64,000 nucleotides of DNA from Salinigranum marinum (GTDB lineage Archaea; Halobacteriota; Halobacteria; Halobacteriales; Haloferacaceae): positions 1 to 64,000 of the forward strand of contig NZ_CP100462.1 of NCBI RefSeq assembly GCF_024228675.1. Reading direction: 5' to 3'. Of this stretch, positions 53,728-58,698 are shown piece after piece. Both the position numbers and the translations under genes were made by a program. The number at the start of each line of letters is the position of its first letter. Position 1 is the stretch's first letter. The notes beneath the pieces were generated by a model. That model ran no database searches, was not told where the DNA came from, and saw only the letters and a program-made list of their open reading frames with translations.

Positions 53728-54558
53728 ATGGATCCATCCGACGTTCGGTACAAAAAGAGTGGGAAAATCAAGAAGAAAGACTACAAGCGCGAACTCGACC
53801 GCCTCCAAGAAGAACTGGTGAAGCTCCAGCGCTGGATCCAGGAGAAGGACCTGAAAGTCTGTGTCATCTTCGAGGGGCGCGACGCCGCAGGGAAAGGTGG
53901 CGTCATCAAACGGATCATGCGCCGGCTCAACCCACGGGTCGTCCGGGTCGAGGCGCTGGGCAAGCCCACCGAACGCGAGCAGGGACAGTGGTACTTCCAG
54001 CGGTACGCCGAGCGGCTTCCCACGGAGGGGGAGATGGTGCTGTTCGACCGCAGTTGGTACAACCGCGCGGGCGTCGAGCAGGTGATGGGGTTTTGTACCG
54101 ACGAGGAGTACGAGGAGTTCCTCCGCACCTGCCCGGAGTTCGAGCGGATGCTCGTTCGTTCGGGGATGATCCTCATCAAGTACTGGTTCTCGATCAGCGA
54201 CGAGGAACAGGAGCGGCGCTTCCGCAAGCGGAACCAGGACAAGAAAAAGCGGTGGAAGCTCAGCCCGATGGACCTCGAAGCCCGCGCCCGGTGGGCGGAG
54301 TACTCGCGGGCGAAAGACGAGATGTTCGCACACACGGACATCGAGGAGGCGCCGTGGTACGTCGTCCAAGCCGACGTGAAGAAACACGCCCGGCTCAACT
54401 GCATCACGCACCTGCTCGACCAGATCCCGTACGAGGATCTGACGCCCGACCCCATCGAGCTCCCCCCGCGCGAGGAGCGCGGGGAGTACGAGCGCCCGCC
54501 GATCGAAGACCAGACGTGGATCCCGGCCGTCTACGGCTCGAACCCCGTCGACGACTGA
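53728..54558 (+). CDS. ppk2: Polyphosphate kinase 2 family protein
   Basis: This 276-residue P-loop enzyme transfers phosphate between polyphosphate and nucleotides. Walker A is EGRDAAGKGGV (49-59), Walker B is VLFDRSWYNRAGVE, and the lid region KRNQDKKKRWKLSPMD is Lys/Arg-rich. Length and single-domain layout fit class I PPK2 enzymes. The N-terminus is Lys-rich. A role in polyphosphate or NTP homeostasis is inferred from family. Confidence 0.93.
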   Translation: MDPSDVRYKKSGKIKKKDYKRELDRLQEELVKLQRWIQEKDLKVCVIFEGRDAAGKGGVIKRIMRRLNPRVVRVEALGKPTEREQGQWYFQRYAERLPTEGEMVLFDRSWYNRAGVEQVMGFCTDEEYEEFLRTCPEFERMLVRSGMILIKYWFSISDEEQERRFRKRNQDKKKRWKLSPMDLEARARWAEYSRAKDEMFAHTDIEEAPWYVVQADVKKHARLNCITHLLDQIPYEDLTPDPIELPPREERGEYERPPIEDQTWIPAVYGSNPVDD

Positions 54559-54583: not shown

Positions 54584-55603
54584 TCACCACGCGCGCGTGA
54601 ACTCCAGTTTGAACACCGCCCCGTGGGGCTCGTTCGACTCGACCCACACGTCACCGCCGTACGTCTTCATCACCTGATCGACGAAGAAGAGGCTGAACCC
54701 GTTGCCGTGGTGGACCTGATCGATCTCCTCGCGGCCGAAGATCATCTCGTGGCGGCTCTCGAAGACGCCGGGACCGTTGTCGGCGACGCTGACGACGACC
54801 CGTTCCTCCTGGACGTCGAACGACACCTCGACGACGGGCTCCGACGAGGTGTTGTGCTCGACCGCGTTCTCGAGCACCTCCCAGAGAACCCGGCGGACGG
54901 TGTCGTTGGCGACGACGTGTGCCGGCTCGCACGCGTCGGCGTACTCGAAGCGGGCGTCGAACTCCCGCTCCGCGCGCTCGATGACCGGCCGGAGGGTCTC
55001 GCCGAGGGGGAGGGTGCTGACGACCGCCCGCTCCTGGGCGTTGAGCAGGTGTTCGAGGTCGCGAGCGGTGTCGGCGCTGTCGATGACGCCACCCAGGCGC
55101 TTTCGGATCTTCGAGACGGACTCTTGGGCGGTCTCGTCGTCCACCTGCGCGGCGAGCTGTTCGACGTGTCCCACGACGACGTTGATGTCGTTGCGGATGT
55201 TGTGGCGGAGGACCCGGTTGAGGATGCGGAGCGCGCGCGTGTGCCGACGCCGTTCGGTCAGATCGGTGAAGACGCCCGCGAGCATCTCCGTCTCCCCGCC
55301 GACCTCGATGGGGACTGCCGACCCCATGCCGTAGAAGACTCGGTTGTCGGCCGTCAGCAGTTCGCACTCGCCGGCCCACTGCTCGTCGCACATGATCTGT
55401 TCGGCGACGTCCTCGAGGATCGTGTCGTCGACGAGGATCTCCGTCACCGGGGTCCCGATGAGGGTCTCGCGGCTCTCGTAACGGAGGAAGTCGGCGGCTG
55501 CGGCGTTGGCGTCGCGGATTCGAAATTCGAAGTCAATCACCAGTGCCGGGTTCTCGATGGAGTAAAACACCGCCTCGTAGATTTCGGGTGCGAGATCAGA
55601 CAT
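54584..55603 (-). CDS. PAS-domain sensor histidine kinase
   Basis: This 339-residue soluble kinase has an N-terminal PAS domain (about 8-118, ending VFTDLTERRR), a haloarchaeal H-box ILNRVLRHNIRNDINVVVGH with phosphoacceptor His134, and an HATPase_c domain (N box LWEVLENAVEHN, G1 box VADNGPGV, G2 box GNGFSLFFVDQVM). There is no membrane segment or response regulator next to it, so it is probably a cytoplasmic sensor with an unlinked partner. It is convergent with ppk2. Confidence 0.9.
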   Translation of the reverse strand: MSDLAPEIYEAVFYSIENPALVIDFEFRIRDANAAAADFLRYESRETLIGTPVTEILVDDTILEDVAEQIMCDEQWAGECELLTADNRVFYGMGSAVPIEVGGETEMLAGVFTDLTERRRHTRALRILNRVLRHNIRNDINVVVGHVEQLAAQVDDETAQESVSKIRKRLGGVIDSADTARDLEHLLNAQERAVVSTLPLGETLRPVIERAEREFDARFEYADACEPAHVVANDTVRRVLWEVLENAVEHNTSSEPVVEVSFDVQEERVVVSVADNGPGVFESRHEMIFGREEIDQVHHGNGFSLFFVDQVMKTYGGDVWVESNEPHGAVFKLEFTRAW

Positions 55604-55738: not shown

Positions 55739-56710
55739 TCACTTGAGCCCGCGCGCTTTCACGTCGACTTCGAGGAGGTGGCGCATCCCGTCGACGAACG
55801 CGTGGAGGTCGACGGTGTCGACGTCGTACTCCGTGGAGACGAGCTTGCTGTAGGTCTCGTTCCACGTCAGCAGGTGCTCGCGTTCGATCCCCGCGTCCTT
55901 GATCCGGCTGGCGAGACGCTCGTTCGGGACATCGACGTCGCGGATCTCCGCCTCGGAGACGACCCCGCGCTCGATGGCCTCGATGACGACGCGCGAGGTG
56001 TAGTCGCACTCGTCGAGTTCGCGCTCCCAGGTGGTGATCCAGTTCCCGATGCGGGCCAGACGCTGGGCGTCCCACGTCACGTCGCGGAGCGTCGCCAGGT
56101 CCGCGCGGTCGAAGCCGGGCGAGAACGCGAGGTCGATGTCGACGTAGATGAACAACAGCATGTTGTGGGTGTCGTACAGCTCCGCCCCACGGGGACTCGC
56201 TAGCTGTGGCCCGTCGTTCACTAGCCGGTTGTAGTCCATCGTGTTGAGCGACTGTCGGAGGTCGAACTCGAACAGTTCGCGGAAATCCGCCCGACGGGGA
56301 GCCTGGTCGAGGTACGCCTCGGTGAGCGCCCACGACTCTTCGAGGAGTCCCAGGGCGTCGGCGTCGACCCCGGGCGCGTCCGCGTCACACTGGGTCGACA
56401 CGAACGGGATCTTCCGTCCCTGCTCGAACGTCTCCTTGTCGCGGTGTCGCTCCGAGAGGTCGTCGAGGACGGTCATGAACAGCGAGAAGCAGAACTTCGT
56501 CTTCCGCGCCGTCTCGGCGTGCTCGTCGGCGACCGAGGAGAGCCGAAATCCCGGGAACACGTAGTAGAGCCACTGCCAGAGCAGTTCGTCGCGGTCCTCG
56601 GTCACCGCGGCGTAGTGGTCGATCAGCGGATCGAGCTCCGCCGGGAGTTCGGTTCGTGTCATGTCGCGGACGATGCGGGGAAGCTGTCGGGTCGTGGTTG
56701 TCGTCGCCAT
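55739..56710 (-). CDS. Candidate class I terpene synthase-like protein
   Basis: This 323-residue all-helical-looking protein carries the two Mg2+-binding motifs of class I terpene cyclases at correct spacing. The Asp-rich motif is D83-D84-L-S-E87 (FMTVLDDLSERHRDK). The NSE triad is N223-x3-T227-x3-E231 (IGNWITTWERELDE), 140 residues later, as in bacterial sesquiterpene synthases. Arg174 lies 49 residues before N223, near where the diphosphate-sensing Arg is expected. Length fits a single alpha-domain cyclase. Family membership is inferred from motifs only. It is divergent from a small wHTH gene across a very AT-rich region. No prenyltransferase is adjacent. Confidence 0.55.
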   Translation of the reverse strand: MATTTTTRQLPRIVRDMTRTELPAELDPLIDHYAAVTEDRDELLWQWLYYVFPGFRLSSVADEHAETARKTKFCFSLFMTVLDDLSERHRDKETFEQGRKIPFVSTQCDADAPGVDADALGLLEESWALTEAYLDQAPRRADFRELFEFDLRQSLNTMDYNRLVNDGPQLASPRGAELYDTHNMLLFIYVDIDLAFSPGFDRADLATLRDVTWDAQRLARIGNWITTWERELDECDYTSRVVIEAIERGVVSEAEIRDVDVPNERLASRIKDAGIEREHLLTWNETYSKLVSTEYDVDTVDLHAFVDGMRHLLEVDVKARGLK

Positions 56711-56719
56711 ACGTCGAAA

Positions 56720-56825
56720 TTCAACACATTCTGGGAGAGCATAAAATTATTCATTCGATAACTGTTTAATTTAATATAAAATATATAAGTAAAAAAGTTA
56801 TACAAGAAAAGATGTAAGATAGCGA
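56720..56825. promoter_or_regulatory. Very AT-rich promoter island
   Basis: From about 56742 to 56820 the sequence is roughly 80-85% A+T (for example TTTAATTTAATATAAAATAT), in strong contrast to flanking genes of about 65-70% GC. A second AT patch is at 56942-56985 (AATGATAATAATTTAC...AATTATATATGG). It lies upstream of the terpene synthase-like gene and, across about 300 bases, of the divergent wHTH gene. Several TATA boxes are possible. Confidence 0.5.
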
Positions 56826-56848
56826 AACCGGTAGAACGGACGCCTCTC

Positions 56849-56877
56849 CGGGGACGTTCACGCGCTGGACGTCCCCG
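56849..56877. other. GC-rich hairpin within the AT-rich island
   Basis: CGGGGACGT (56849-56857) pairs with ACGTCCCCG (56869-56877) around an 11-base loop: a perfect 9-bp stem lying between two AT-rich blocks. It could be an operator, a transcription terminator or part of a small RNA. No coding frame is supported there. Confidence 0.4.
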
Positions 56878-57006
56878 AAGGCCCGGTTCACGGGGGGTTG
56901 CTGCGGATCGCGCGCGGTTCGCCTCTCCCTGACCGATGAACGATAATGATAATAATTTACTACGGAACGAGTTAATTATATATGGCTGGCAGTCGACGTG
57001 TCTCCC

Positions 57007-57243
57007 ATGACGCAACTCGCCGCCCCCACGACGCAGTCGACGACCGTCGACCCGCTCCCGTCCGCCATCGACTCCGCCAGCGCGAAGCTGGTCTACCTCT
57101 ATCTCGACACCGTCGGTCCGACGACGATCACGGAGCTATCGGCAGCGCTCGACATGCGGATGCTCGGCCTCTACAGCGTCCTCGACACTCTCGCGAGCGA
57201 CGGACTCGTCGACTCCGAGGGCGAGACGTACTTCCTGGCCTGA
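57007..57243 (+). CDS. Small winged-helix protein
   Basis: This 78-residue protein has a central wHTH (LVYLYLDTVGPTTITELSAA then RMLGLYSVLDTLASDGLVD) preceded by a Thr/Pro-rich leader. The shape matches haloarchaeal TrmB/MarR-like small HTH proteins. ATG 57007 is preferred over GTG 56998. It is divergent from the terpene synthase-like gene and may regulate it. Confidence 0.75.
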   Translation: MTQLAAPTTQSTTVDPLPSAIDSASAKLVYLYLDTVGPTTITELSAALDMRMLGLYSVLDTLASDGLVDSEGETYFLA

Positions 57244-57810: not shown

Positions 57811-58698
57811 ATGCAGGTCGGCTCCCGTCAGTGCGTGCTCAACCCCCAGAGCGGGACGGCCGACCACGCCGACTACGTCCGTCGGCTGATGGGTGCGCGC
57901 GGCTTCGCGGTCGACGAGACCGAGAGCAAGGCCCACGCGATCGAACTCGGTCGCGAGGCCGGTCGGGACGGCGTCTCGACGCTCGCCGTCTGCGGCGGCG
58001 ACGGCACTGTCAACGACGTCCTCAGAGGTGTGTACGAGGTCGGTGCCGTCGAGGAGATCACCCTCGCCGTCGTCCCGACCGGCACGGCGAACCTCCTCGC
58101 GGGGACGGTCGGGATCCGCGGCGTCGACCACGGCATCGAGGTGGCCGACACCGGCTCCGTGCGGGGCGTCGACCTCGGCGTCGCGGCCGACCACCCGTTC
58201 GTCGTCTCGGCGATCGCGGGGCTCCCGGCCGACGCCAGCACCGCGACTTCCGACGCGCTGAAAGAGCGGTTCGGCACGCTCGCGTTTCTCCTGTCGGGCG
58301 CACGCGAGACGCTGGCGTTCGACGGCCTCGACATCCACGTCTCGACCGACGGCGAGACGGTCTTCGACGGGTCAGCGCTGTCGGTGCTCGTCGGCAACGC
58401 CCGGAAGTTCGTCGAGGAGGGCGGGCAGGCCGCCATGGAGGACGGCCGCTTCGACGTCGCCGTCGTCGAGGAGATGCCGCCGCCGACCGCCGTCGCCGAA
58501 GCGGTCGCCCACCGGCTGCTCGCCAGGGGGACCGAGGGCGTCACGCACCTCCGCGCGGGATCGGTGACGATCGAGAGCGCGGAGCCGATCACGTTCAGCC
58601 TCGACGGCGAACTGAAACGACACGACCGCCTCTCGCTGTGCGTCCGCCCGGGGGCGCTCGACCTCCGCGTCGGCAAGGGATACGAGCCGACCCCGTAG
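57811..58698 (+). CDS. Diacylglycerol/lipid kinase family protein
   Basis: This 295-residue protein has the DAGK catalytic motif CGGDGTVNDV (61-70) and PTGTANLLAGT, followed by a C-terminal beta domain (SVTIESAEPITFSLDGE). It is similar to YegS/DgkB-type lipid kinases, which use ATP to phosphorylate membrane lipids. In haloarchaea the substrate may be an isoprenoid diol or archaeol-type lipid. It opens after a promoter region that ends the divergent small membrane gene. Confidence 0.88.
   Translation: MQVGSRQCVLNPQSGTADHADYVRRLMGARGFAVDETESKAHAIELGREAGRDGVSTLAVCGGDGTVNDVLRGVYEVGAVEEITLAVVPTGTANLLAGTVGIRGVDHGIEVADTGSVRGVDLGVAADHPFVVSAIAGLPADASTATSDALKERFGTLAFLLSGARETLAFDGLDIHVSTDGETVFDGSALSVLVGNARKFVEEGGQAAMEDGRFDVAVVEEMPPPTAVAEAVAHRLLARGTEGVTHLRAGSVTIESAEPITFSLDGELKRHDRLSLCVRPGALDLRVGKGYEPTP

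Follow-up and report, generated by a model that had tools for sequence, protein, structure and literature searches.

Terpene synthases have been described in bacteria, fungi, plants, amoebae and certain animals. In KkdCS, a bacterial class I enzyme of the Pfam family PF19086, the two characteristic motifs read 83-DDAYCD and 223-NDIASYYKE (PMC10509563). The non-canonical IB to IF synthases (BalTS, AsR6, PeuTPS) have the class I fold, by which, and not by sequence, they were recognised, and the canonical DDxxD and NSE motifs are missing from them; no archaea are named in the main text of the work on these enzymes (PMC11234867). In haloarchaea, 'terpene' clusters have been predicted in Halomicroarcula genomes, without enzymology (PMC8600319), and no biochemically characterised archaeal class I terpene synthase was found in the literature searched, which was mostly open-access; an earlier description is possible. 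Regulation of isoprenoid genes in Halobacterium involves Bat, a PAS-GAF-HTH protein that activates bop under illumination and when oxygen is low; the phytoene synthase gene crtB1 is located near bop, and the two promoters share an upstream activator sequence (PMC3184054). Bat, bop and crtB1 therefore provide a precedent for sensor control of an isoprenoid gene.

The window (the whole 64,000-nucleotide stretch of Salinigranum marinum DNA that was analysed) contains a candidate class I terpene synthase gene at 55739–56710 on the minus strand. It is an ORF of 323 codons for amino acids with an ATG start (ORF calls and start sites are heuristic), and its product carries DDLSE at residues 83–87 and NWITTWERE at residues 223–231. 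As the original prediction had claimed, Asp83, Asp84, Leu85, Ser86 and Glu87 and the triad Asn223/Thr227/Glu231 are both present in the ORF and the alignment, with a spacing of exactly 140 residues, and both motifs occupy the same positions as those of characterised actinobacterial enzymes such as KkdCS (PMC10509563). The motif pair alone is weak evidence, because a comparable pair at a spacing of 130–150 residues occurs in about 1% of shuffles of the 323-residue protein; conservation among relatives and the predicted fold indicate that it is real. Asp84, Asn223, Trp224, Trp228, Arg230 and Glu231 are invariant in an alignment of 88 haloarchaeal homologues. Asp83 is found in 84 of these 88 proteins and is replaced by Asn in the other 4, and position 87 is Glu or Asp in all of them. 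The Asn and Glu of the second motif are likewise present in 88/88, as is Thr or Ser between them, Thr227 itself being near-invariant. The family signature of the second motif in these relatives is NWxx(T/S)WxRE, in which Trp224 follows Asn223 in all 88 proteins, where canonical enzymes have Asp (ND-xx-S-xxx-E).

The AlphaFold model of the window protein, built with 80 family sequences, has an all-helical class I terpene synthase fold (alpha domain) with a pLDDT of 94.7 and a pTM of 0.92. All 19 PDB matches obtained with Foldseek at E ≤ 0.001 are class I terpene synthases with a probability of 1.00, and farnesyl diphosphate synthases appear further down the ranking. VIA-align gives Z scores of 20–21 over about 265–275 residues with the taxadiene, abietadiene, isoprene, (E)-biformene and epi-isozizaene synthases, which exceeds the tool's stated background for helical models, about 14. 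By contrast, the window protein has no match among the Pfam and NCBIfam terpene synthase models or the PDB sequences, a search of the PDB with the family profile found nothing, and a PF19086 search of the synthase's own genome missed the gene. PF19086 does match 61 of 80 relatives at E ≤ 1, the best at 2.6e-8; the matched region covers both motifs, and a few of these relatives score above the curated (gathering) cut-off of 23.7 bits. Since the searches with the window protein, with the family profile and in its own genome were empty, detection relied on the relatives and on the fold. The original prediction of a class I terpene synthase is thus supported by a predicted terpene synthase fold together with motifs that are kept in close and distant homologues, the lack of either having been named beforehand as a possible refutation. 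The structural comparison that it had proposed agreed, with terpene synthases at the head of both PDB comparisons and epi-isozizaene synthase among the VIA-align matches, and the proposed Pfam search was negative for the window protein itself and positive for the 61 relatives.

The window synthase and the bacterial class I enzymes of PF19086 (KkdCS and the hydropyrene, T-muurolol and epi-isozizaene synthases) have in common the alpha-domain fold, a similar length, the motifs DDxx(D/E) and N-xxx-(S/T)-xxx-E, an Arg or Lys before the Glu and the 140-residue spacing. The window synthase differs from them in that it is archaeal, has no Pfam match, is only about 10% identical in structural alignments, and has NW in place of ND and an invariant Trp228. 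Plant alpha domains (taxadiene, abietadiene and isoprene synthases) give the highest structural Z, about 21, whereas the window synthase has neither a beta nor a gamma domain and is 7–10% identical to the plant enzymes. It resembles the IB to IF synthases in its class I fold and in having been found by fold, but the archaeal family has both of the canonical motifs that those enzymes lack (PMC11234867).

Two further departures from bacterial class I enzymes concern residues outside the motifs. The pyrophosphate-sensor Arg of the effector triad is expected about 46 residues before the NSE Asn (Asn223 minus 46), and no conserved Arg or Lys is present among family members at query positions 168–186, as judged by sequence offset alone. 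The ends of the structural alignments suggest Arg320, which is followed by Gly, as the counterpart of the RY-pair Arg; about 59% of members have Arg or Lys at this position, and no intact RY pair is evident. A bacterial homologue without the pyrophosphate sensor is still weakly active (PMC10509563). Because of these departures, the claim is held at a terpene synthase of a distinct family, the activity of which we infer.

A gene for a 339-residue PAS-HisKA-HATPase histidine kinase (54584–55603, minus strand) is located 135 bp downstream of the synthase gene on the same strand. Its product matches the Pfam models HATPase_c (1.2e-18) and PAS_9 (6.8e-8), and HisKA weakly (0.0073). Homologues of this kinase adjoin the synthase gene in 11 other loci, always within 183 bp and in co-directional, convergent or divergent arrangements, and the phospho-acceptor H box, the N box and the G box are retained in most of these synthase-adjacent homologues. 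A six-member clade of the synthase tree, which includes the window protein, has a PAS histidine kinase neighbour throughout; locus L112 carries the label FilR1 in the tree output, yet also has this kinase 73 bp from the synthase. The downstream PAS histidine kinase, and not the divergent winged-helix (wHTH) gene on the other side (see below), is therefore the conserved partner of the window synthase clade. A Bat-type PAS-GAF-BAT-HTH_10 regulator is absent beside the window synthase. The arrangement is similar to that of Halobacterium Bat with bop, brp and crtB1 (PMC3184054) in that a sensor-regulator gene is found beside isoprenoid-pathway genes, whereas the Halobacterium isoprenoid neighbour is a phytoene synthase that serves retinal, and the partner in the window is a histidine kinase without an HTH.

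Among 135 distinct synthase genes, which form 47 clusters at 60% identity and include many loci from related genera, 76 genes and 24 clusters have a sensor or regulator gene (kinase, Bat or FilR1) within 1.5 kb. Bat neighbours occur in 46/135 loci, and no sensor neighbour was detected for 59 genes (about 44%). Within 600 bp of the synthase, kinase-like genes reach a density of 0.273 per kb, compared with 0.003–0.013 per kb beyond 3 kb; the corresponding values are 0.161 and at most 0.008 for Bat-type genes, and 0.074 and 0 for FilR1-type genes, with kinase and Bat counts overlapping because both contain PAS domains. The type of neighbour tracks the synthase tree, with 18 changes compared with 52 in shuffles. 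In methanogens, each of the five Methanosarcina-type loci examined encodes a PAS-HisKA_2-HATPase kinase directly upstream of a distant homologue of the synthase (L200:8139-9683, L201:7224-8705, L205:8309-9826, L202:4135-5601, L204:4801-6288); Pfam was run on three of these kinases, and the other two were judged by their similar N-terminal sequence. Many haloarchaea also have small HalOD1-domain genes near the synthase and a Bat regulator (for example, L138:5236-5535 and L159:2634-2963), and HalOD1-like small genes lie within 1.5 kb of the synthase in 25/135 loci.

The upstream side of the synthase gene had been regarded in the original prediction as a tightly regulated layout, consisting of a divergent wHTH gene across an AT-rich, hairpin-bearing region. 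The AT-rich promoter region (56711–56836, minus strand) has a TATA-like block, GAATGAATAATTTTATGC, and an upstream block, TAACTTTTTTAC, and its GC content is 25% at 56717–56836, compared with 45% across the whole synthase–wHTH intergenic region and about 65% in the surroundings. The orthologous genes of Salinigranum salinum (L111) and genome G350 (L088) have both blocks upstream as well, and the AT-rich stretch at the synthase start, kept at all three Salinigranum loci, appears to be an ordinary but conserved archaeal promoter. Among the inverted repeats of the intergenic region, one at 56846–56880 (no strand assigned) has 15-nt arms (56846–56860 and 56866–56880) that are 87% complementary. 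The resulting hairpin is not stronger than those of shuffled sequence (fold z-score of -0.7) and is absent from the loci of two Salinigranum relatives; a conserved switch was rejected on these grounds, and the hairpin is probably not functional. The small divergent winged-helix protein, encoded at 57007–57243 on the plus strand, has 78 residues from its ATG (81 from an upstream GTG at 56998) and gives a weak TrmB-like wHTH signal (E = 9.6e-4, below the curated cut-off). Its gene has about 6 paralogues in the window genome and is found beside the synthase elsewhere only in S. salinum, not at the third Salinigranum locus; a role as dedicated regulator or main partner was accordingly rejected, and the gene is a lineage-specific neighbour rather than a conserved partner. 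The divergent layout is present as described, but the hairpin did not hold up, and the idea of tight regulation through it and the wHTH gene is not sustained, as both are barely conserved and conservation points instead to the downstream kinase, which the original prediction had not mentioned.

No prenyl synthase, P450, methyltransferase or other tailoring gene recurs beside the synthase among the neighbour clusters that were annotated, and a conserved biosynthetic cluster was rejected for this reason. A short-chain dehydrogenase gene is located divergently beside three relatives (L089, L090, L091) and not in the window. In one methanogen genus, an FAD-dependent oxidoreductase is encoded two genes from the synthase homologue (L193:8349-9446, L194:8141-9214); it resembles the geranylgeranyl reductase group, an assignment that is a guess beyond FAD binding. 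A diacylglycerol-kinase-like protein, recognised from its sequence only, is encoded at 57811–58698 (plus strand) of the window, and this gene accompanies the synthase at each of the three Salinigranum loci, which is probably plain synteny. A gene for Polyphosphate kinase 2 (PPK2; 53728–54558, plus strand) is convergent with the PAS kinase gene and is also kept in Salinigranum loci.

The atypical residues and the company of signalling genes permit other explanations. The protein might have the class I fold and yet be a different prenyl-diphosphate enzyme, such as a prenyl transferase or a phosphate-releasing lyase that yields a simple acyclic alcohol, as this fold is common to all trans-isoprenoid enzymes, farnesyl diphosphate synthases do appear lower in the Foldseek ranking, and neither the canonical sensor Arg nor the RY pair is evident. 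We regard this as unlikely, given that the second DDxxD of the FARM and SARM pair of trans-prenyl diphosphate synthases is absent, that N-xxx-(T/S)-xxx-E stands in its place in 88/88 relatives and differs equally from the DxxxD of squalene/phytoene synthases, and that both the structural rankings and the Pfam signal point to terpene synthases. It is very improbable that the family consists of non-catalytic, synthase-like regulators or binding proteins, such as a prenyl diphosphate sensor that works with the neighbouring kinase: the metal-binding positions are kept in the 88 haloarchaeal members and in methanogens, which would not be expected after loss of catalysis, even if the frequent association with signalling genes, the absence of recurring tailoring genes and the atypical sensor and RY positions are in keeping with such a role.

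A real synthase whose proximity to sensors is incidental has a small but appreciable chance of being the correct reading. Haloarchaea have dozens of kinases and Bat regulators and rearrange freely, the window genome alone gives about 30 matches to kinases and 18 to the Bat domain, members of the same kinase subfamily are found away from the synthase too, and 59 of the 135 synthase genes have no such neighbour. Against this, sensor density drops about 20-fold or more from the first 600 bp to beyond 3 kb, adjacency to the kinase is kept in three relative orientations, and synthase and sensor genes are paired again at Methanosarcina-type and Methanohalobium loci.

A functional archaeal class I terpene synthase with a single alpha domain, belonging to a distinct family and tied to a dedicated sensor, is in our judgement the probable explanation, in which we infer catalysis, substrate, product and the direction of the sensor–synthase relation. 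Mg2+ would be held by Asp83/Asp84/Glu87 and Asn223/Thr227/Glu231, with Arg230 adjoining, and a prenyl diphosphate would thereby be bound and ionised; the helical pocket would then steer the cation toward a cyclic or rearranged terpene. Haloarchaea make geranylgeranyl diphosphate (GGPP) and farnesyl diphosphate (FPP) for lipids and carotenoids, so GGPP or FPP is likely to be the substrate. Expression of the synthase or use of its product is probably coupled to a dedicated PAS-domain sensor, which would be the adjacent histidine kinase in the window and a Bat-type (PAS-GAF-HTH_10) or FilR1-type regulator in relatives. It is a doubtful further step to a terpenoid signalling module, in which a diffusible terpene made by the synthase would be perceived by the co-encoded PAS sensor (kinase, Bat or FilR1), and it is just as doubtful that such a module would be the archaeal counterpart of synthase–receptor communication; that sensor and synthase genes adjoin in haloarchaea whatever their relative orientation, and do so again in Methanosarcina-type genomes, is compatible with this idea.

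Terpene cyclases had been called rare or poorly described in archaea in the original prediction; rarity does not apply to this family. Matches are present in 123 of 391 Halobacteria genomes, or about 119 (about 30%) after removal of four that are short or weak (G113, G172, G262, G305), and a profile search of the phylum extends the family to methanogens: it is found in two genomes of one genus, in a second taxonomic family and, as weaker but near full-length matches, in large genomes of the same taxonomic family as Methanohalobium. The second motif and the DD pair are kept in Methanosarcina-type proteins, and the model of one of them (L200; pLDDT of 91.4) matches terpene synthases at Z scores of 22–24. 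In five haloarchaeal plasmid records, the synthase gene is labelled 'hypothetical protein', no other annotation of the family was encountered, and these plasmid-borne members are simply unannotated. A family of this extent would open archaeal terpene chemistry in tractable hosts, and its recurring sensor neighbours offer a concrete way to ask under which conditions, and for what purpose, archaea would produce terpenes. Relatives of the synthase are also encoded on two short contigs (L186, L188) that come from metagenomes and bear bacterial labels; the labels may be wrong, and the contigs represent either archaeal DNA that was mis-binned or rare members from bacteria.
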